This document shows, piece by piece, positions 6,732 through 34,385 of a DNA stretch of 39,162 bases. Within the stretch, counting starts at the first letter, position 1, and the number at the start of each line of letters is the position of its first letter. Source of the stretch: a virus; IMG/VR virus record IMGVR_UViG_3300048586_000105, positions 1-39,162 of that record, one strand, 5' to 3'. Position numbers and translations under genes: made by a program. The notes under the pieces are model-generated. The model was not told the origin of the DNA. It made no database searches and worked only from the letters and a program-made list of their open reading frames with translations.

Positions 6732-6851
6732 ATGTTGAAGAGGTATATCAACAACTCAACTGCCGCTAGTGGAGTCCCCGCACAGGTATCTGACGCAGAG
6801 CTGCTTGATGCAGTGGTTCAGCGCCTAAGCAAGCCAGTCAATAACGACTAG
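6732..6851 (+). CDS. 39-residue protein converging on the integrase
   Basis: This short soluble, probably helical protein (acidic [11 protein letters not shown] region, basic start) is read from its own extended -10 with almost no leader. Its 3' end overlaps the 3' end of the integrase gene by 27 bases on the opposite strand. Size and position would fit an excision factor or a regulator of the integrase, but I recognise no family. Confidence 0.5.
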   Translation: MLKRYINNSTAASGVPAQVSDAELLDAVVQRLSKPVNND

Positions 6852-8234
6852 GTCCGGGTCAAAGCGCATCGTCTTGCCGTCTACGTTGTAGAAGGGCTTC
6901 GTGTTGCCAGGCTTCAGGACGATTCGCTTTATGAAGAGCGACATGAGTGAACGCCGCCAGTCATCCCCGTTCTGCATCCATGCGTCTCTAACAGTCTGCC
7001 CCGGCTCTACTGCGACAGTCGTGCTCTGCGTTCTGTTCACCAGCTCGGCCAGCGACTCCACTTCTGCTTCGGCGAGCGTCTTTGCGCGGCTGAACTGCTG
7101 TCTATTCAGCAGGCCGCTGGCGTAGTCATCCACCAGCGCATTCACGCGCTCACGAGCAAGGCGCAACTGCTCAAGGTGCTCGCGCAGTTGTCCGTCGTTA
7201 TCCCGTCCGAGGAGGTCAGCAAGAGCCGGTGTATCCAGCCGGTAGACGATGCACTCTCTGATGAAGTGCTCCAACGCGTCTGCATTACGCACAACACCAC
7301 CGCAGCCACCTTCGCGCTTGGTGTCTCCTTGCACGCGACAGTGATAGGTCCGGCGCAGTGGCCGGCCAGGGTGGTCGCGCTTTGTTGCACCATTGAGCTG
7401 CTGACCGCACTTGCCACAGTAGACAAGACCGGTAAGCAAGTACTTCCTGGCGATGCTCTTCGTTGATTGCCGTGCGCTGATGGCCAGCTGCAGCCGTTCC
7501 CACGTTGCCGGGTCAAACACCGGCTCCCACTGTGCGGCGTAGCGCGATCCGTTGTACTCGCGGATGCCGCCGTAGCGGGGCTTCTGCAGCATGTTCCTGA
7601 CCGTTATTGGATACCAGAGCCGCCCCGTTGAAGTCGTGTGGCCGTTCTCGTTGGCCCAGTACGCAACGTCCTTGAATCCATGGCCACTAAGTACAAGCCG
7701 TGCCATCTCGCGGAGTACGGCTGCTTCTGACTCGCGGACTGTCATGAGGTCTGGCTCGTAGCCATAAGGACGACGCGAGCCATGAGGCTTGCCAGCTCGT
7801 GCCTTTTGGGCATTCGCCAGCTTGTGACGCTCGCTCTTTGTCTCTACTTCTGCACGAGCAACAGAGGCAAGGATGCGCCCCATCAACCGGCCACTGCTAT
7901 TGGTCAGGTCAATGTCGCCTTGCACCGTCGCAACGTCAACACCAACGTCTTCTACGAGTTCAATGAGCTGCTCCAGCTCAGTCATGCGACGCAGCAGCCG
8001 GTCCAGCCGGTAGGTCACCACCACGTCGCACTCGCGGCGCTGCATGGCCGCCAGGAGCTGCTGGTAGGCAGGGCGGTTGCCGGTGGTAGCAGAGACGCTG
8101 TTGTCTCTCAGGACGGCCTTGACGGTCCATCCGCGGGTCTCGCAGAGACGGCGGCACTCTTCTTCTTGCCGTTGGACTCCGAGCCCTTCGCCAGTCTGAT
8201 CAAGGGACTGACGGACGTAGACGATCGCTTGCAT
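6825..8234 (-). CDS. int: Large serine recombinase (phage integrase)
   Basis: This encodes 469 residues, the usual size of large serine integrases. The N-terminal catalytic domain begins AIVYVRQS with the nucleophile at Ser10, followed by the VQRQ.EECR block and a YRLDRLLR segment with the expected arginines. The recombinase domain follows ([12 protein letters not shown], then [15 protein letters not shown]). The zinc-ribbon domain has CGKC at about residues 274-277 and two later cysteines (YHC, GGC), then a helical coiled-coil region (residues 340-400). It integrates and, with a partner, excises the element. The start at 8234 faces a likely attP and a nucS fragment. Confidence 0.92.
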
Positions 8235-8312
8235 TGTGTAGTACTCCGATTACTCTCCGTATTGTCTCATGAAGCGGCGTATACATCAACATGCTTTGGC
8301 TCGTTTGTCAAG
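8235..8312. other. Candidate attP region
   Basis: These 78 bases lie between the integrase start and the point where similarity to NucS begins. Large serine integrases usually have attP next to their gene. Recombination here would fuse host nucS coding sequence to the fragment that follows. No clean symmetric site was identified by eye. Confidence 0.45.
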
Positions 8313-8561
8313 GAAGGCACCGCTAGACATTGGGCGGTTGAAGTGAAGCGCAGGGCCGGTATTGATGCAGTTGAGCAGCTGACCAGGTACCTCGAACTAC
8401 TTAATCGTGACCCATTGTTGGCACCCGTTGGCGGGGTACTAGCGGCACAGGAGATCAAGCCCCAGGCTCGGACACTCGCGGAAGACCGGGGCATTCGTTG
8501 TGTCGTGTTGGACTACGACGCACTACGCGGAGTCGATGACCGGGATTCTCGGTTGTTCTAG
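8313..8561 (+). pseudogene. nucS: 3' fragment of nucS (mismatch endonuclease NucS/EndoMS)
   Basis: These 82 codons match the C-terminal nuclease region of actinobacterial Nuc[60 protein letters not shown] and the final RLF. NucS cuts at mismatches and replaces MutS/MutL in actinobacteria. The catalytic Glu and Lys of the VEVK motif are kept; the upstream catalytic Asp and the whole N-terminal DNA-binding domain are absent. There is no start codon in frame between the integrase start and the fragment, so it cannot be made from the free circle unless fused to upstream sequence. Its end overlaps the convergent gene by 39 bases. Confidence 0.85.
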
Positions 8562-9233
8562 TTTCAGTTGGATGACTGTCCCAGGCGGAACATCCTCCAA
8601 GTAGAAGTTGCCTATCTTCGTGAACACGCCGAAGTCATAGGGCGCGCTTGTCTGCCAGTCGTAGATGTCGCGCCAGTACTTGGCGGTGCCGGTAACCGGC
8701 CCTGGCATGAACGAGAACCGCACGTCGGTTGTGGCGACTGGATTTGCGACGAAGATGAACCAGTTCCGTGGCTTGCGAAAGTCACCACCAAGCACCCTGA
8801 AGTTGCCAGCATCAACGTTCAGGTGATGGATAAGGCCATCGATGTTCAGCATCACAAGAACATCTACGTAGTAGTTCTGCTTCGTAGGTACCGGCTGTGC
8901 ATCGTCAGCGACGATACGGGCAACTAGTTCTTCCAGCATTCTGTTCTCGTACGCCTCAATCGTGTCGCTATGCCGGCCGTCGTTAGCCATTCCAAAGTCG
9001 TTGCGCCTGTCCGTCAGTTTCCCAGGGGCAGTGATCCCGATAGCAAGAGCGTTGGCTAGTGCTCGCTGCTCAACGCCGTCGCCAAGCTCCAACAGAGTTG
9101 TTATGACCGCGTCATAGGCTGCTTGCGCCGTGCCGTACTTGGCGAGAAGAGTCGGGCATCGCTCCAACTTTGCCAGCGTCATGCCCGTGCCCTTGCGTAG
9201 CCCACGCAGCTCGGCAAGCAACTCGTCGCGCAC
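8523..9233 (-). CDS. Unknown protein with actinobacterial-type N-terminal helical domain
   Basis: This encodes 236 residues from a GTG at 9233 that has GGGGAG 6 bases upstream. The longer frame to 9392 is rejected because it would overlap the divergent operon. The N-terminus ([15 protein letters not shown], then [15 protein letters not shown] and [20 protein letters not shown]) resembles a helical domain common in uncharacterised actinobacterial proteins, often regulators. The C-terminal 110 residues are beta-rich ([30 protein letters not shown]). Its last 13 codons are antisense to the nucS fragment, so the C-terminus may have been formed or trimmed at a recombination joint. Confidence 0.6.
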
Positions 9234-18564: not shown

Positions 18565-20109
18565 CTAGGCGACTGCCAACCTCCAGCCGAGTTCGCGGAC
18601 AGCGGCTTCCATATCAGTCTGGTTGTAGACGTTGAAGGTGTTGTGCTGTGTCACGCCCCCAACCATGTCGGCTGTCTGGCTTGCGTTGTAGACGCGTGAG
18701 CCTCTTGGCAGATTCACAAGCTCGGGACCACGTTCGCCAACGACGGCCAGTCCACCAGGAGCAGAACGGGTACCAGTAGCAAAGCCCGGTATCACGTCCT
18801 TGATCTTGCCGAGCGGTCCAGGGATGTCAATGTTGCCGATTGCAGTCCGGATCATGCCTCCGACGCCGGAGAACAGGTCAACCATCCGCTGGGGGAGGTC
18901 TTTCACAGCTTCGTAAGCTGCAAGGAACGGCGCAGCGATGAAGTCACGAACGTTGTTCATGATGTTCTTCAGTCGCTGTACAGCAGTGTTGAAGGCGTCG
19001 GCCATGCTGGAACCCGCGTTCCAGGCGATTTTCTGCAAGCTCATGAACTGATTAGCTACCCACGTCACCGTCTTGATGACGACGTTGAGTGCGTTGATAA
19101 GTAGCCAGAGCGCTGCAACGAGTGTCACCCCGATGACGATGGCGAGTGCCTTGATGACTGGCACAAGCACCGGCTCGAGCAAGCGCCATGCTTCCTTTAG
19201 CGAAGGGAACAGTTCGTTCTTTAGCGTGTTCCATAGGGCAGATAGCGATGGGCCAAGGTGCTCCTGAAGCACACTCCACACAGCGCGGGCGGCGTCAGCT
19301 ACCTTGCGGAACGCGTCGCCAAGCCATGCCATTGCGTCACGGCTAACCACTTCAGTCTTAGCGATCAGTGAGTCCCAGTCGCCACCGTTGGCGAGCTTGT
19401 CCAGCTGGTTAGAGATGCCCTCAAAGATGGGCGCCGTGGCAGCTCCTGCAAGCATCTGCAGCTTGTCCTTGATCTGGTCAAAGCGTGCAGCAGCGGTCTG
19501 TCCTTGCGCAGACACGAGCGAATAGTCAATGCCCATCTCCTTGAGCACGCGGCTGATGGACTCCATCGCAGGGATGCCCTCCTTCTTGAGTTCGTTGATA
19601 CGAACGCGGGGGAGGTTGAAACGATCTGTGATGGACACCCAGTCACCACCAAGAGCCTCACGAAGCGAGAAGACCGCTCCTGTAAGCCCTTGTTCTGGGT
19701 TGATGGCTGCAAGTACCTCTGCTTGTCGTACGAGGTCTTCTAGGGCCACGCCCGTCTGTTTGCTGACTGGTGTGAGCTGAGCGGCGGCATCGGCCATGTC
19801 CGTGAATGAGAACTGCGTTGCGGCAGCTTCCTTCTTAACCCACGCCAGGACCTTGGCGACCTTGTCGGCGTCTTGTGTGAACGCCATCAGCTTGGTCTCT
19901 GCTTGCTGAACCGAGCTATTGAACTTGAAGCCAAGCGCGACAGAGGCAGTTGCAGCAGCGGCGGTCAACGCCCCTAGTGCAATCACTCCTGCCTTAGCAG
20001 CTCCAGCAGCCTTGCTCTTGACACCGTCCAGAGATGAAGAGACCCCGCCTAGTTCCTTACTGGCTTGATCCTTTGCTCGTATGATGATGTCGATATTCTT
20101 TGTAGCCAT
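18565..20109 (-). CDS. Tape measure protein
   Basis: This encodes 514 residues. Alanine-rich helical sequence with a hydrophobic region (about residues 315-350) and a C-terminal GPELVNLPRGSRVYNA segment are typical of siphovirus tape measures. The N-terminal IDIIIRAKDQASKELGGVSSSL is the standard start. By the rule of about 0.15 nm per residue, tail length would be about 75-80 nm, which is short for a siphovirus. Its ATG shares a base with the stop of the frameshifted chaperone (TAATG). Confidence 0.9.
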   Translation of the reverse strand: MATKNIDIIIRAKDQASKELGGVSSSLDGVKSKAAGAAKAGVIALGALTAAAATASVALGFKFNSSVQQAETKLMAFTQDADKVAKVLAWVKKEAAATQFSFTDMADAAAQLTPVSKQTGVALEDLVRQAEVLAAINPEQGLTGAVFSLREALGGDWVSITDRFNLPRVRINELKKEGIPAMESISRVLKEMGIDYSLVSAQGQTAAARFDQIKDKLQMLAGAATAPIFEGISNQLDKLANGGDWDSLIAKTEVVSRDAMAWLGDAFRKVADAARAVWSVLQEHLGPSLSALWNTLKNELFPSLKEAWRLLEPVLVPVIKALAIVIGVTLVAALWLLINALNVVIKTVTWVANQFMSLQKIAWNAGSSMADAFNTAVQRLKNIMNNVRDFIAAPFLAAYEAVKDLPQRMVDLFSGVGGMIRTAIGNIDIPGPLGKIKDVIPGFATGTRSAPGGLAVVGERGPELVNLPRGSRVYNASQTADMVGGVTQHNTFNVYNQTDMEAAVRELGWRLAVA

Positions 20110-20348
20110 TAGGTGTTGCCTGAACCGCGTTGCTGCTCGCCACGCTTTACTTCTAATTTATCACGTTTACCGTCTAATTCCCACAGCTTCAGTGCTCTCA
20201 GAATCTCTTCCGCGGGCTCTTGAATTGCCTCGTGGTAACTCAGATGCAGACGTTCCCTATAACGTAGGAACGCAATCTCACTGACGTAGGCTTCGTCGCC
20301 TGGCAGAACGGAGTCGCGGACGACTATTCGTTCGTAGGCTTCAGCCCT
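20109..20348 (-). CDS. T-like extension of tail chaperone, made by -1 frameshift
   Basis: This stretch appears empty in ordinary gene calling but is fully open in the -1 frame from the slippery site to a TAA overlapping the tape-measure ATG. It adds 79 residues, strongly helical and charged, after 109 shared residues, giving a 188-residue GT protein. A T-domain-like LxYHEAI motif and the exact fit of the frame to the gap support this strongly. Confidence 0.82.
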   Translation of the reverse strand, partial: RAEAYERIVVRDSVLPGDEAYVSEIAFLRYRERLHLSYHEAIQEPAEEILRALKLWELDGKRDKLEVKRGEQQRGSGNT

Positions 20349-20674
20349 TTTGGGTCAGTCTCTGCTCCGTTGATGGCGTTGAATAGTGAATCAAAGACAT
20401 CTTTTGGTAGGCCCATGAGGTGGTCTTTGGTGAAGTCAGTAACAGCAGCTAACCCGGATGCGTCGAGTTCTAGGACCTTTCCACCGATGACGCGCTTCAT
20501 AACGAAGTCGTTCTGGTACTCGAGCGCCTGCTCGTCGGTCATGTTCGCAACGTCAAGGTTCTTGAGCGCGATGAGGTCGCCATAGTTGGCCGGGATGAAC
20601 GTGATGTAGCAGTCCTGCCAACCTTCGCCAACGGACGCCAAAGAGAACCGCCGTGTGATCGCCAGCTGGCCCAT
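20324..20674 (-). CDS. Tail assembly chaperone, short form (G-like)
   Basis: This encodes 116 residues between the tail tube and tape measure genes, the invariant position of the lambda-G equivalent. It ends normally at 20324, but seven codons before the stop lies a -1 slippery heptamer, C-CCA-AAA (20354-20348). Slippage gives the longer GT form. The ratio of the two forms controls tail assembly around the tape measure. Confidence 0.82.
   Translation of the reverse strand: MGQLAITRRFSLASVGEGWQDCYITFIPANYGDLIALKNLDVANMTDEQALEYQNDFVMKRVIGGKVLELDASGLAAVTDFTKDHLMGLPKDVFDSLFNAINGAETDPKGLKPTNE
20348..20354 (-). promoter_or_regulatory. Programmed -1 frameshift site CCCAAAA
   Basis: On the minus strand the zero frame reads GAC-CCA-AAA-GGG, placing CCCAAAA as X-XXY-YYZ. 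After slipping, the -1 frame is open for 79 codons. This matches the conserved frameshift between lambda-type G and T chaperone genes. Confidence 0.82.
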
Positions 20675-30701: not shown

Positions 30702-31541
30702 TTATGCGTCTTTTAATATAGGCAACAGGACACAGCGGCAGTTGCTGTGCAATGGCGGACCGTCTATGTCTTCGTAGTCAAACTTGATAGTCACGAGCTT
30801 CTCGTTGCCGTCTGCATCCACGACAGGGTTGCCGTTGGCGTCCAGCTGCGGCGTGGTCATGCTGGAGCCCTTCTTGTAGAAGGTCTTTGTGAGCCCGATG
30901 GTCTTGCCGTTCATCGGTGAGCAGTAGCTGCACACGCGTTCGTCTCGCGCGGTGTACCACTCTTTGCCAGCCACTTCATCGGACTGGACCCACGCTTCAA
31001 TTGCGCTGAACGTCTCGGCCTTGATGGTCTCGGTGCGTGCGATGCGTTCGGCTCTGTAGCCAGCTGCAGCGCCGTAGACGGACTCAATGCGCGCCCGTAT
31101 CTCATTGATGCTCTCGCCGTTGCTGAGCCCTTGTGCGAGCTCTGAGCGCAGTTGCTTGTCGGTCTCTTCGTTGATGGAGCCAGCTACGAGCTTGGTGCGG
31201 TTAAGAACGAAGTCCAGGACGGCAGGGTCGGAGCCGTTGAACGAGCCAGGGGACACAATCAGCATGGCTGCTTGGCCGGCCTCGTTGATCTGGTCGCGAA
31301 GTAGCGGTTGGAACAGCAGCGCCAGGCGCTCTGTCTCGGCTTCCATGTCAAACAGCGGGTCTGATGGGGCTTTGGTGATGCCCTTGCCAACAAGGTCCTC
31401 GACGTTCGCGAGGACTATCTCCTTCTGTGTATTGAAGAACTGTCGAGAGGTGGACAGCCAGCGGGGACGGTACTCATCGGCACGTTGGTTCTGAGCTGCA
31501 GCTCGCGCTTCGCCTATGTCGTCGCGATCAGCCGTTTTTTT
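30702..31541 (-). CDS. MuF-type head morphogenesis domain, -1 frame of portal
   Basis: The frame is open for 279 codons but has no good start: the first ATG (31346) has no ribosome site and comes 65 codons late. The upstream part (DEYRPRWLSTSRQFFNTQKEIVLANVEDL) is conserved in MuF-domain extensions of HK97-type portals. The C-terminal region carries the MuF signature (RIARTETIKAETFSAIEAW, then DERVCSYCSPMNGKT and HSNCRC). The most likely product is a fusion made by -1 slippage on A9 at the end of the portal gene. An internal start is the alternative. Confidence 0.75.
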   Translation of the reverse strand, partial: KKTADRDDIGEARAAAQNQRADEYRPRWLSTSRQFFNTQKEIVLANVEDLVGKGITKAPSDPLFDMEAETERLALLFQPLLRDQINEAGQAAMLIVSPGSFNGSDPAVLDFVLNRTKLVAGSINEETDKQLRSELAQGLSNGESINEIRARIESVYGAAAGYRAERIARTETIKAETFSAIEAWVQSDEVAGKEWYTARDERVCSYCSPMNGKTIGLTKTFYKKGSSMTTPQLDANGNPVVDADGNEKLVTIKFDYEDIDGPPLHSNCRCVLLPILKDA

Positions 31542-32923
31542 TTACCCCCAAGGGATTTCGAGCTGTCAGGAGCGTCGTCTGCCGGGTCTTCCGGCTTCTC
31601 TTCGGGCGTGTCTGTTGGGTCAGCTGGGTCAAGCTTCTCAGTGCCAAGCGGCACGAGATTGGCATCTACGTAGAGCACATCGCCACCAGGCAGCGGCTCG
31701 TCGCCGAGTTCCGCGCGTACTTCGTTGATGGTGCGGTACTTGTTGATCGACTCAGTGCGTTGCTTGTGGAGGAACTGCTTGTCTTCAGGTACTGGGTCCA
31801 CGTACCCAATCACGAGCTTCTGGTCATAGGCAGGGGCCAGCTTGGAGTTGATAGCTGAAACTTCCTTGCTCATGAGCGGCTTTACAGCGCGCTTGGTGTG
31901 GTTGTACTCAGCGGTCTCCATGTTGGAGCGGCCATCGCCTTCAACGATGCCGAGAATGGTGCGTGACATCACGAACATGGCCAGTATCTGGTCGCGGTTG
32001 AACTTGCGACCTTCTAGGTACTCCATGTCCTTCTGCGTGACCGTCAGGACCTTGGCCTTCAAGCCTTGTTCGAGTAGCGCGGTCTTGTGCGCTTGATTGG
32101 CGCCGCGGTGTTCGTCATCCCATTGCTCTTTGAGTCGGTCAAAGACGTTGTCGTCCAGCTTGGCGTCGGTCTCTAGGACCACGTCAGGACGGGCAGAGTT
32201 GCGGAAGAAGGCACGGGTCCAGTCAGCGGAGTTTGCGTCAGTCTCAATGGCTCGTGCAGATGCTCGTACGACGCTCATGCCGCGATAGATGCTGTTGGGG
32301 TCGGTCAACGGGATATGGACAACGTCTTCCGCTAGCCAGGGCACATCTTCGCCGCCCACGCGGTAAATCCAGCCCTTGATAGAGCCGTCAGTGTCGGTGA
32401 CGTGCTTCATGCCGTACGGGAACATCGGCCACAGCTGAACTGGTAGGCCAACGCCGTTGCGGACGATGCCCCAGAAGGCTTCTCCGGCTAGCAACATATG
32501 GAGGAATGTCATCTCTTGGAACGTGATGCCGGACTGAACTGGGTTCGGCTTCTCCATGAGGTCTAGCAGGATGTGGCTATCTAGCTCCTCGAGCTTTGGC
32601 TTGCCGTTCGCAGCCTTTGTCTTCTGCAGTTCGCGGAGTAGTGATGGATGCAGCTCTAAGCGGCGTGCCACCTTCTGGCTCTTCGTGCCGGTCCGGTTGG
32701 CGAATGCCTGTAGGTCGATGAGGGCGGCGTCCTGAGCAATCACCTTGCTGGCCGCGTAGACCCAATCAAGGTAGGCGCGGAGCTGTTCGCGCTGGTTGCT
32801 GAATTTGAGGGAACCTGAATTGAGCGGGTACACCTTGTCGAAGAGCTGGTCAAACGTTAGATCGTCGGTGCTCTTCTTTGCGTATCCCAGTGGTTGAAGT
32901 ATTCGTTCTATGAGTGAAGCCAT
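31514..32923 (-). CDS. Portal protein (HK97 family)
   Basis: This encodes 469 residues. The pattern (HILLDLMEKPNPVQSGITFQEM, HMLLAGEAFWGIVRNGVG, DVVHIPLTDPNSIYRGMSVV and a long clip/crown helix EYNHTKRAVKPLMSKE) fits HK97-type portals. In the zero frame it ends after K-K-K-R-L-I-A-T-T, just past the A9 run; -1 slippage extends it with a MuF domain. It forms the dodecameric vertex for DNA packaging together with the terminase encoded next to it. Confidence 0.88.
   Translation of the reverse strand: MASLIERILQPLGYAKKSTDDLTFDQLFDKVYPLNSGSLKFSNQREQLRAYLDWVYAASKVIAQDAALIDLQAFANRTGTKSQKVARRLELHPSLLRELQKTKAANGKPKLEELDSHILLDLMEKPNPVQSGITFQEMTFLHMLLAGEAFWGIVRNGVGLPVQLWPMFPYGMKHVTDTDGSIKGWIYRVGGEDVPWLAEDVVHIPLTDPNSIYRGMSVVRASARAIETDANSADWTRAFFRNSARPDVVLETDAKLDDNVFDRLKEQWDDEHRGANQAHKTALLEQGLKAKVLTVTQKDMEYLEGRKFNRDQILAMFVMSRTILGIVEGDGRSNMETAEYNHTKRAVKPLMSKEVSAINSKLAPAYDQKLVIGYVDPVPEDKQFLHKQRTESINKYRTINEVRAELGDEPLPGGDVLYVDANLVPLGTEKLDPADPTDTPEEKPEDPADDAPDSSKSLGGKKKRLIATT
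31535..31543 (-). promoter_or_regulatory. A9 slippery site joining portal to MuF
   Basis: On the minus strand the portal frame reads GGT-AAA-AAA-AAA-CGG. Slipping back one base leads into the 279-codon MuF frame. A9 fits X-XXY-YYZ. A sequencing error (A10 in truth) would also join the frames. Confidence 0.7.
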
Positions 32924-32978: not shown

Positions 32979-34385
32979 CTATAAGAATCTAATGCTTGGT
33001 TCGGTCGGATTCGCAACCGCCTCGTATATTGCGGCTAGTACGTCAGGGCCATCGTCGTGCTTGTTCTTGCCCTTCTTCTGATACGAGCGCAGGTGCTTGT
33101 AGAACTCGGGCCACTTGTGCTGCCAGCCACGAGGGAAGATGACGTTGCGGTTCACCCACGCGCTGGATGCCAGGATGCGTGCCTCCTTGTTGGCGGTCTG
33201 AGCTACCCACGTCACGATGACGGACCGGTTGCCCCGCTCCCGGAGTAGTCGCTCCACGTTGCGAGCGAAGCCACGGCCACCGTTGTTGCTCTCAATGACA
33301 GACTCGTTCACGTCGTCTGCGTCCAGCATGTCGGCGACACCGGGCTCGGTTGTCTCCATGCCTTCGTCGGTGAAGTAGACGTCGGTGACGTACGCCTGGC
33401 CGTCGTGGACCACGTAATCAACGGAGCAAAGGAAGTCAGCGCCCTTGTCGGCTGTATCGGTGTAGTTCCACTTCTTCAAGCCAGTGGCCGGCAGTGCGTC
33501 GTACTCAGTGAACGGCTGTTGGTAGAGCCGCCCTTCAACGTCTATCGGTTCCTGGTTGTAGTTGGCCTCCACGATCTCGCGGGCCATGTTGCGGGTCTTG
33601 ATCTCGTAGTTGTGGGCGTTGAGTATTGAGTCGCAGAGCATGGAGCCATCAGGCTGCACAGCTTTGAAGGTGATGTGTTCTACCTCTTCGCCGTACTCAT
33701 CAAGGATGCGGCCAGCTAAGTCCTGCGTTGCCCAGCGCGTCATGATGACGATGACCTTCCAGTCGTCGCCTTCCGTTCGTTGCATCATCGTGTTGGTGAA
33801 CCAGGACCAGTGCTTCTCCAGGACCAGCTCGGAGTACGCCTCGGTGTCGTTCTTGATGATGTCGTCTATAAGGATGAGGTTCGCTCCGAAGCCCGTAGCG
33901 GTCCCGGTTGGTGACGTTGCGAGGTAGTTGTCCTGTGAGCTGCCTTCAAGCGCCCAGAGGCTTGCAGAGGCTTGCCCGTACTTTATCTTCGTGTCTTTGA
34001 AGATGTCGCCGTAGACAAGCGGCCGGTCTGTGATGTCACCAGCTGTTGGCTGCTCTTCAATCGTGTCGCGGACCTTGCGAGCAAACGTGGTGGACAGCGT
34101 CTCGTTGTAAGAGCCGGTCATAACCTTGCGCGTGTTGTCCTTGCCGAAGTACCACTCCACGAAGCCGGAGCCAGTGAAGCTCTTGTAGTGCCGGGGCGGC
34201 ACGTTGATCAGCAGGAAGCGCTTGTCGTTCTGTTCAATGAACGCCTGCATCCGCTCGGCCATGGTCTTCAGGAACATGCGGTCCGGCGTGTAGTGCTTTG
34301 GGTATCGAAGCGTGCAGTACTCATAGAACTCGCGGCGTGCCAGTTCGATGTGTGCTTCAAGTCGGATGCGTTCAAGATCCTGCAT
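32979..34385 (-). CDS. terL: Terminase large subunit
   Basis: This encodes 468 residues. The ATPase has Walker A NVPPRHYKS (PPRHYKS at 63-69) and Walker B LILIDD at 170-175. The C-terminal nuclease has acidic residues in LCSVDY, ESNNGG and DDGPDVLA. It drives DNA into the prohead and cuts it. It overlaps the small-subunit gene by 14 bases. Confidence 0.93.
   Translation of the reverse strand: MQDLERIRLEAHIELARREFYEYCTLRYPKHYTPDRMFLKTMAERMQAFIEQNDKRFLLINVPPRHYKSFTGSGFVEWYFGKDNTRKVMTGSYNETLSTTFARKVRDTIEEQPTAGDITDRPLVYGDIFKDTKIKYGQASASLWALEGSSQDNYLATSPTGTATGFGANLILIDDIIKNDTEAYSELVLEKHWSWFTNTMMQRTEGDDWKVIVIMTRWATQDLAGRILDEYGEEVEHITFKAVQPDGSMLCDSILNAHNYEIKTRNMAREIVEANYNQEPIDVEGRLYQQPFTEYDALPATGLKKWNYTDTADKGADFLCSVDYVVHDGQAYVTDVYFTDEGMETTEPGVADMLDADDVNESVIESNNGGRGFARNVERLLRERGNRSVIVTWVAQTANKEARILASSAWVNRNVIFPRGWQHKWPEFYKHLRSYQKKGKNKHDDGPDVLAAIYEAVANPTEPSIRFL

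Follow-up and report, generated by a model that had tools for sequence, protein, structure and literature searches.

Portal and MuF frames of a phage genome probably joined by a -1 shift at a run of nine A

Results and Discussion

The portal and MuF frames of the window (the whole 39,162-nucleotide stretch of viral DNA analysed here) very probably form one recoded gene, which would yield mostly a 469-aa portal protein and, through a -1 shift at a run of nine A (A9), some 740-aa portal-MuF fusion. Sequence comparison supports the join, the -1 sense of the shift, the slip site and its conservation among relatives. For the group of related phages as a whole, programmed ribosomal -1 frameshifting appears well supported.

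Portal and MuF frames of the window

The features of the junction and its surroundings were as follows.

31514..32923, minus strand: portal gene, 0 frame, 469 aa, with the C-terminal end SLGGKKKRLIATT followed by the stop; Pfam PF04860 (Phage_portal), E 6.2e-57
30702..31541, minus strand: MuF frame, -1 relative to the portal, 279 codons; Pfam PF04233 (Phage_Mu_F), E 2.3e-15
31535..31543, minus strand: A9 run, the putative slip site; no other homopolymer of the window exceeds 7
31535..31541, minus strand: slippery heptamer A_AAA_AAA, of the form X_XXY_YYZ in the verified register of the portal
31514..31516, minus strand: portal stop codon TAG, read from the sequence
31542..31544, minus strand: TAA closing the MuF frame upstream of the slip site; GGTAA is likewise placed in several relatives
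31344..31346, minus strand: first ATG of the MuF frame, without a Shine-Dalgarno (SD) sequence; alignments indicate that its use would lose conserved N-terminal sequence
31544..31556, minus strand: possible small hairpin AUCCC-UUG-GGGGU abutting the A9 run, including an SD-like GGGGG 3 nt from the heptamer
32979..34385, minus strand: large terminase, the context gene used in searches for relatives

Across the junction the minus strand reads CCC TTG GGG GTA AAA AAA AAC GG, and the portal ORF ends with GGT AAA AAA AAA CGG CTG ATC GCG ACG ACA TAG; the junction sequence of the window is GGGGGTAAAAAAAAACGG. The portal stop lies 21 nt 3' of the A9 run on the minus strand, as an earlier sequence-only reading had stated. 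The heptamer is in the 0-frame register, before the 0-frame stop and within the -1 ORF, and the same holds for all clean members of the group described below. Only about 0.08 runs of at least nine A or T are expected in 39,162 bases, and the next longest run in the window is 7.

The MuF frame contains no ATG, GTG or TTG in its first 65 codons, the first being the ATG at 31346. No SD sequence was found before this ATG. An AAGGAG lies directly beside an ATA codon (31418), which was rejected as a usable start. PHROG 2662 is a family of portal-MuF fusions, and its profile (717 long) was matched at 65-441 by the portal frame and at 476-706 by the MuF frame from residue 12 onwards, so that the stretch preceding the first ATG shows MuF homology. 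The proposals that this stretch is conserved and that the frame has no ribosome site of its own were therefore both borne out. The portal and MuF domains were matched in order by one profile, with two overlapping frames in place of a single uninterrupted ORF, and the SPP1-type arrangement of two genes, with MuF having its own start and ribosome site, was not found in the window. A -1 shift at A_AAA_AAA would join 463 and 277 residues into a 740-aa portal-MuF protein, the size that had been foreseen.

Because it carries 127-bp end repeats, the window was regarded as a complete genome. Apart from the portal-MuF junction, the late genes examined in the window showed no obvious broken frame, and no toxin extension was seen on its MuF. 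The minus strand also encodes, at 6825-8234, an integrase whose N-terminal part resembles a DNA invertase (PHROG 95/125), so the phage is probably temperate. At 20109-20674 on the minus strand, just before the tape-measure gene, a 116-aa ORF ends with an in-register C_CCA_AAA (20348-20354), the heptamer also present at the portal junctions of loci L105 and L156. The -1 frame at this site is open to 20109, which makes it a second candidate -1 site, in a tail-chaperone position like that of lambda G/GT.

Junctions in related phages

Relatives were found through terminase searches, a search of the genus of Arthrobacter Hiyo8, and scans with MuF and portal profiles. Single-protein scans of viral contigs with the MuF or portal of the window returned almost nothing close, and an initial alignment of portals had too much diversity to serve for scanning. 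Besides L012 and L013, a search with the DNA pattern TCCCTYG..GGGGTA7 matched just two unrelated contigs. Hits at L020/L022 were rejected, as neither portal nor MuF was present.

Portal and MuF were fused in a single gene in 102 of the 143 classified loci. One-ORF fusions were found in GBK2, Silence, a Parageobacillus phage, mu1/6 and OnionKnight, and they have been published for Microbacterium phages of clusters EA3/EA5/EA8/EB (PMC7302621). Together with PHROG 2662, these agree with the earlier statement that such fusions are known as single genes. At the same junction, about 12 related lineages, with portals about 30–60% identical to that of the window, showed a -1 overlap with an in-register heptamer, retained in four sequence versions (AAAAAAA, AAAAAAG, GGGAAAA and CCCAAAA). 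This comparison supports the proposed joining of portal and MuF by a -1 step at the run. The frameshift group comprised the window, L146/L147/L160, L156/L253/L255/L105, L024, L012, L155, L163, L158/L264/L265, L252 and L306, with the following junctions in the relatives.

L146/L147/L160: GAGGGTAAGAAGAGCCT-GGGAAAA-CAG
L105: GAGGGTAAGAAGAGCCT-CCCAAAA-CTC
L156/L253: GAGGGTAAGAAGAGCTT-CCCAAAA-CCA
L255: GAGGGTAAGAAGAGCGT-CCCAAAA-TCG
L024 (Arthrobacter sp. Hiyo8): GAGGGTAAGCAGAGCAT-AAAAAAA-CCC
L012 and L163: GGGGT-A9-G (heptamer AAAAAAG)
L155, L158/L264/L265, L252 and L306: A10-G (heptamer AAAAAAG)

In each of these the -1 frame continues as MuF, and no MuF start codon is common to the group. L146 was 59% identical to the window in the portal and 49% in MuF. 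The GGGAAAA junctions of L146 and L147 lie in Arthrobacter-genus chromosomes, on contigs of >4 Mb. The upstream part of the portal is also broken in Hiyo8, and L024 is therefore weaker evidence. L013 has A8 at the junction and is not joined by -1, and its contig is also frameshifted in the terminase and in MuF. L165 is apparently fused at the same motif, on a badly frameshifted contig. Six loci with -1 overlaps lacking the heptamer (L118, L177, L250, L288, L292 and L293) were left out of the count; in most of these, MuF has a start codon of its own close to where its frame opens. L010, L174 and L257 showed +1 overlaps with their own starts. In L145 (Arthrobacter genus, G055), a transposase-like ORF precedes the MuF of a related prophage, which suggests an insertion into the portal region.

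Strength of the slip-site signal and its history

In-register XXXAAAR heptamers were present at all ten junctions counted (10/10), compared with 1 per about 4,280 portal codons outside the overlap. The overlaps were not picked for their heptamers; six other -1 overlaps were without one. All heptamers of the group have the form V_VVA_AAR, which belongs to the most efficient class of -1 shift sites in E. coli (PMC4066793). In the alignments, the C-terminal linker of the portal varied completely across the group while the junction cassette was kept. The cassette is still there in L012, whose portal (6884-8806) contains an extra domain of ~140 aa in its linker. This domain weakly resembles the anti-CBASS protein Acb1 (Pfam match at E 1.5e-4, below the cutoff), and the C-terminal end of L149 resembles it.

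A tree of 80 portals placed the frameshift members in one clade (SH-aLRT 99) nested among fused genes. In a tree of 130 portals, they fell in two supported groups within an unresolved fork. Parsimony required one change between the frameshift and fused states in both trees. Given the fork in the larger tree, a single origin of the recoded state is likely rather than proven, and the trees do not prove the direction of the change.

Alternative explanations and the slipping step

Had a sequencing or assembly error occurred, the true run would be A10 and portal and MuF would form an ordinary fused gene like that of GBK2-like phages. Such single-gene fusions are the commonest state among the relatives, the A9 run is a homopolymer, and L013 shows that such contigs can miscount. 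However, two Arthrobacter-genus chromosomes have the -1 arrangement with GGGAAAA, and L105, L156, L253 and L255 have it with CCCAAAA, neither of them a homopolymer; since these junctions contain no run to miscount, a homopolymer-count artefact was ruled out as a general cause. Furthermore, the clean members are all -1, whereas errors would fall both ways, and separate assemblies agree on the junctions of L158/L264/L265 (A10), L146/L147 and L156/L253. The late genes of the window, with no other broken frame seen, point in the same direction, and an error in its A9 run is judged very unlikely from the sequences. Separate translation of MuF, whether begun at an internal or non-canonical start codon or by ribosomes reinitiating once they have passed the portal stop, is also quite unlikely. 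The first start lies 65 codons into the frame in the window, 39 in L105 and 88 in L024, past conserved MuF sequence, no start is shared by the group, and the in-register heptamers would be left unexplained, although the close overlap of the frames resembles translational coupling, a GTG occurs 3-4 codons past the slip in L146 and L156, and genuine two-gene arrangements, with overlaps of the ATGA type, occur in the relatives L174, L257 and L288.

The remaining alternative concerns which step slips, and the same 740-aa protein would come from the ribosomal or the polymerase route. RNA polymerase slippage on the A9 run, with extra-A transcripts encoding the plain fusion and normal transcripts the short portal, is a serious possibility of somewhat less than even probability. 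In vivo, nine A or T are enough for bacterial RNA polymerase to slip efficiently, an effect put to productive use in Thermus dnaX, and nascent stem-loops stimulate this slippage (PMC5009743). A run of that length, about nine A or T, is present at the frame junction of the window, several lineages have A9-A10, beyond what the heptamer needs, and the possible hairpin abuts the run in the window, L012 and L163 in the stimulating layout. However, there is no such run in L146, L156 and L105, and the GGGAAAA and CCCAAAA relatives have retained the -1 overlap without it. The members with A runs are all in the -1 register except L013, each with a proper -1 heptamer, and the hairpin was not significant by folding (z -1.6 for the 66-nt fold of the window). 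For the GGGAAAA and CCCAAAA relatives, ribosomal -1 shifting is a better account than polymerase slippage. L146, L156, L253, L255, L105 and L024 carry an SD-like GAGGG 12 nt upstream of the heptamer, with duplex energies of -6.1 to -6.7 kcal/mol, each within the best 3-13% of portal windows. This spacing is close to the 8-11 nt at which an SD was reported to stimulate -1 shifts, and one as close as the G5 of the window (3 nt) to reduce them (PMC6321510). No SD was found at a stimulating distance (about 8-14 nt upstream) in the window, and no significant downstream RNA structure was found as a stimulator. Because its G5 is too near the heptamer to aid a ribosomal -1 shift and its A9 run equally suits the polymerase, either step fits the window, with tRNA-Lys slippage on the ribosome slightly favoured over polymerase slippage.

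In L012, L163 and L013, as at 31544-31556 of the window, CCC and GGGG abut the A run, with differing loop sequences. The window is not sister to these three loci in the portal tree despite the shared layout. The CCC/GGGG element could be a hairpin that feeds polymerase slippage.

Proposed recoding and a possible mixed portal ring

In the recoding of portal and MuF preferred here, most translation would stop at the portal stop and give the 469-aa portal, while at the A9 run a fraction would slip into the -1 frame, yielding the 740-aa fusion, either by tandem tRNA-Lys slippage on A_AAA_AAA or by RNA polymerase adding an A on the A9 run. Portal rings would then mix a plain majority with few MuF-bearing subunits, placing few MuF domains inside the head. 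A low-frequency fusion could reach a copy number similar to that of SPP1 gp7, covalently.

The AT-rich fused loci (L069, L161, L172, L179, L201, L219 and others) have Lys-rich linkers with A_AAA_AAR and an early stop in the -1 frame. Lys-Lys was encoded as A_AAA_AAR in 23/83 cases in fused-locus linkers versus 23/181 elsewhere (Fisher p 0.005, a statistic that ignores kinship and composition). A dnaX-like -1 truncation is possible in these loci.

We tentatively suggest, as an idea that is rather less probable than the recoding itself and may well be wrong, that phages use recoding repeatedly to tune how large a share of the twelve portal subunits bears MuF, through -1 extension here and independently in the phage Emery, and perhaps through dnaX-like truncation, giving a ring that is mixed by design. 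The portal is usually treated as a ring of identical subunits. A conserved recoding site adding a whole MuF domain to some subunits would turn it into a designed mixture and would offer a covalent means of fixing the number of MuF copies; in SPP1 this number is low and arises from non-covalent binding. It would also explain why the same fusion is a plain gene in some phages and recoded in others. Arthrobacter-genus chromosomes carry prophages suited to testing the mixed ring. Recoding would also mean that MuF is missed or truncated by annotation pipelines in the frameshift group.

Comparison with known systems

The single-gene fusions (PHROG 2662; GBK2, Silence, mu1/6, OnionKnight and the Microbacterium phages) have homologous domains in the same order, and recoding in the window would yield the same fusion protein. 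However, they carry MuF on every portal subunit, whereas in the window only the recoded subunits are predicted to carry it.

For the Brevibacillus phage Emery (KC595516), a 'putative ribosomal slippage site' and head morphogenesis proteins of 58.9 and 82.5 kDa were reported (PMC4168068). In Emery gp4/gp5 (L235, 3171-5350), a portal-like protein is followed, after T_TTT_TTA, by a MuF-like extension in the -1 frame. Gp4 matched Pfam Portal_T4 at E 5e-4 (below the cutoff) and is homologous to an annotated gp20 portal; the -1 frame was MuF-like by eye. Emery looks like the same layout as the window in a distant, T4 gp20-like portal type. In the paper, both products were named head morphogenesis proteins, with the portal unrecognised and the slippage site putative. 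Emery was the only portal-MuF frameshift found in the open-access literature, where it went unrecognised, and an earlier report in subscription papers is possible. The portion of the Atkins review available to us does not mention portal or MuF.

The -1 shifts of lambda gpG/gpGT and other tail assembly chaperones likewise give a short form and a -1 extended form, with the heptamer near the stop, but they act in tail assembly chaperones and not in a portal ring. In dnaX the slip site is also an A run, with A_AAA_AAG and an upstream SD in E. coli and with polymerase slippage on A9 in Thermus thermophilus, but the dnaX shift truncates whereas that of the window would extend.

In SPP1, the MuF protein gp7 is bound by the portal gp6 and is present in 1-2 copies (PMC5576092) or about 3 copies (PMC4493119) per head, and it aids infection (PMC6316719). 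MuF bound to the portal in few copies is like the layout proposed for the window. However, SPP1 gp6 and gp7 are two separate proteins held together non-covalently, whereas the fusion predicted for the window is covalent.
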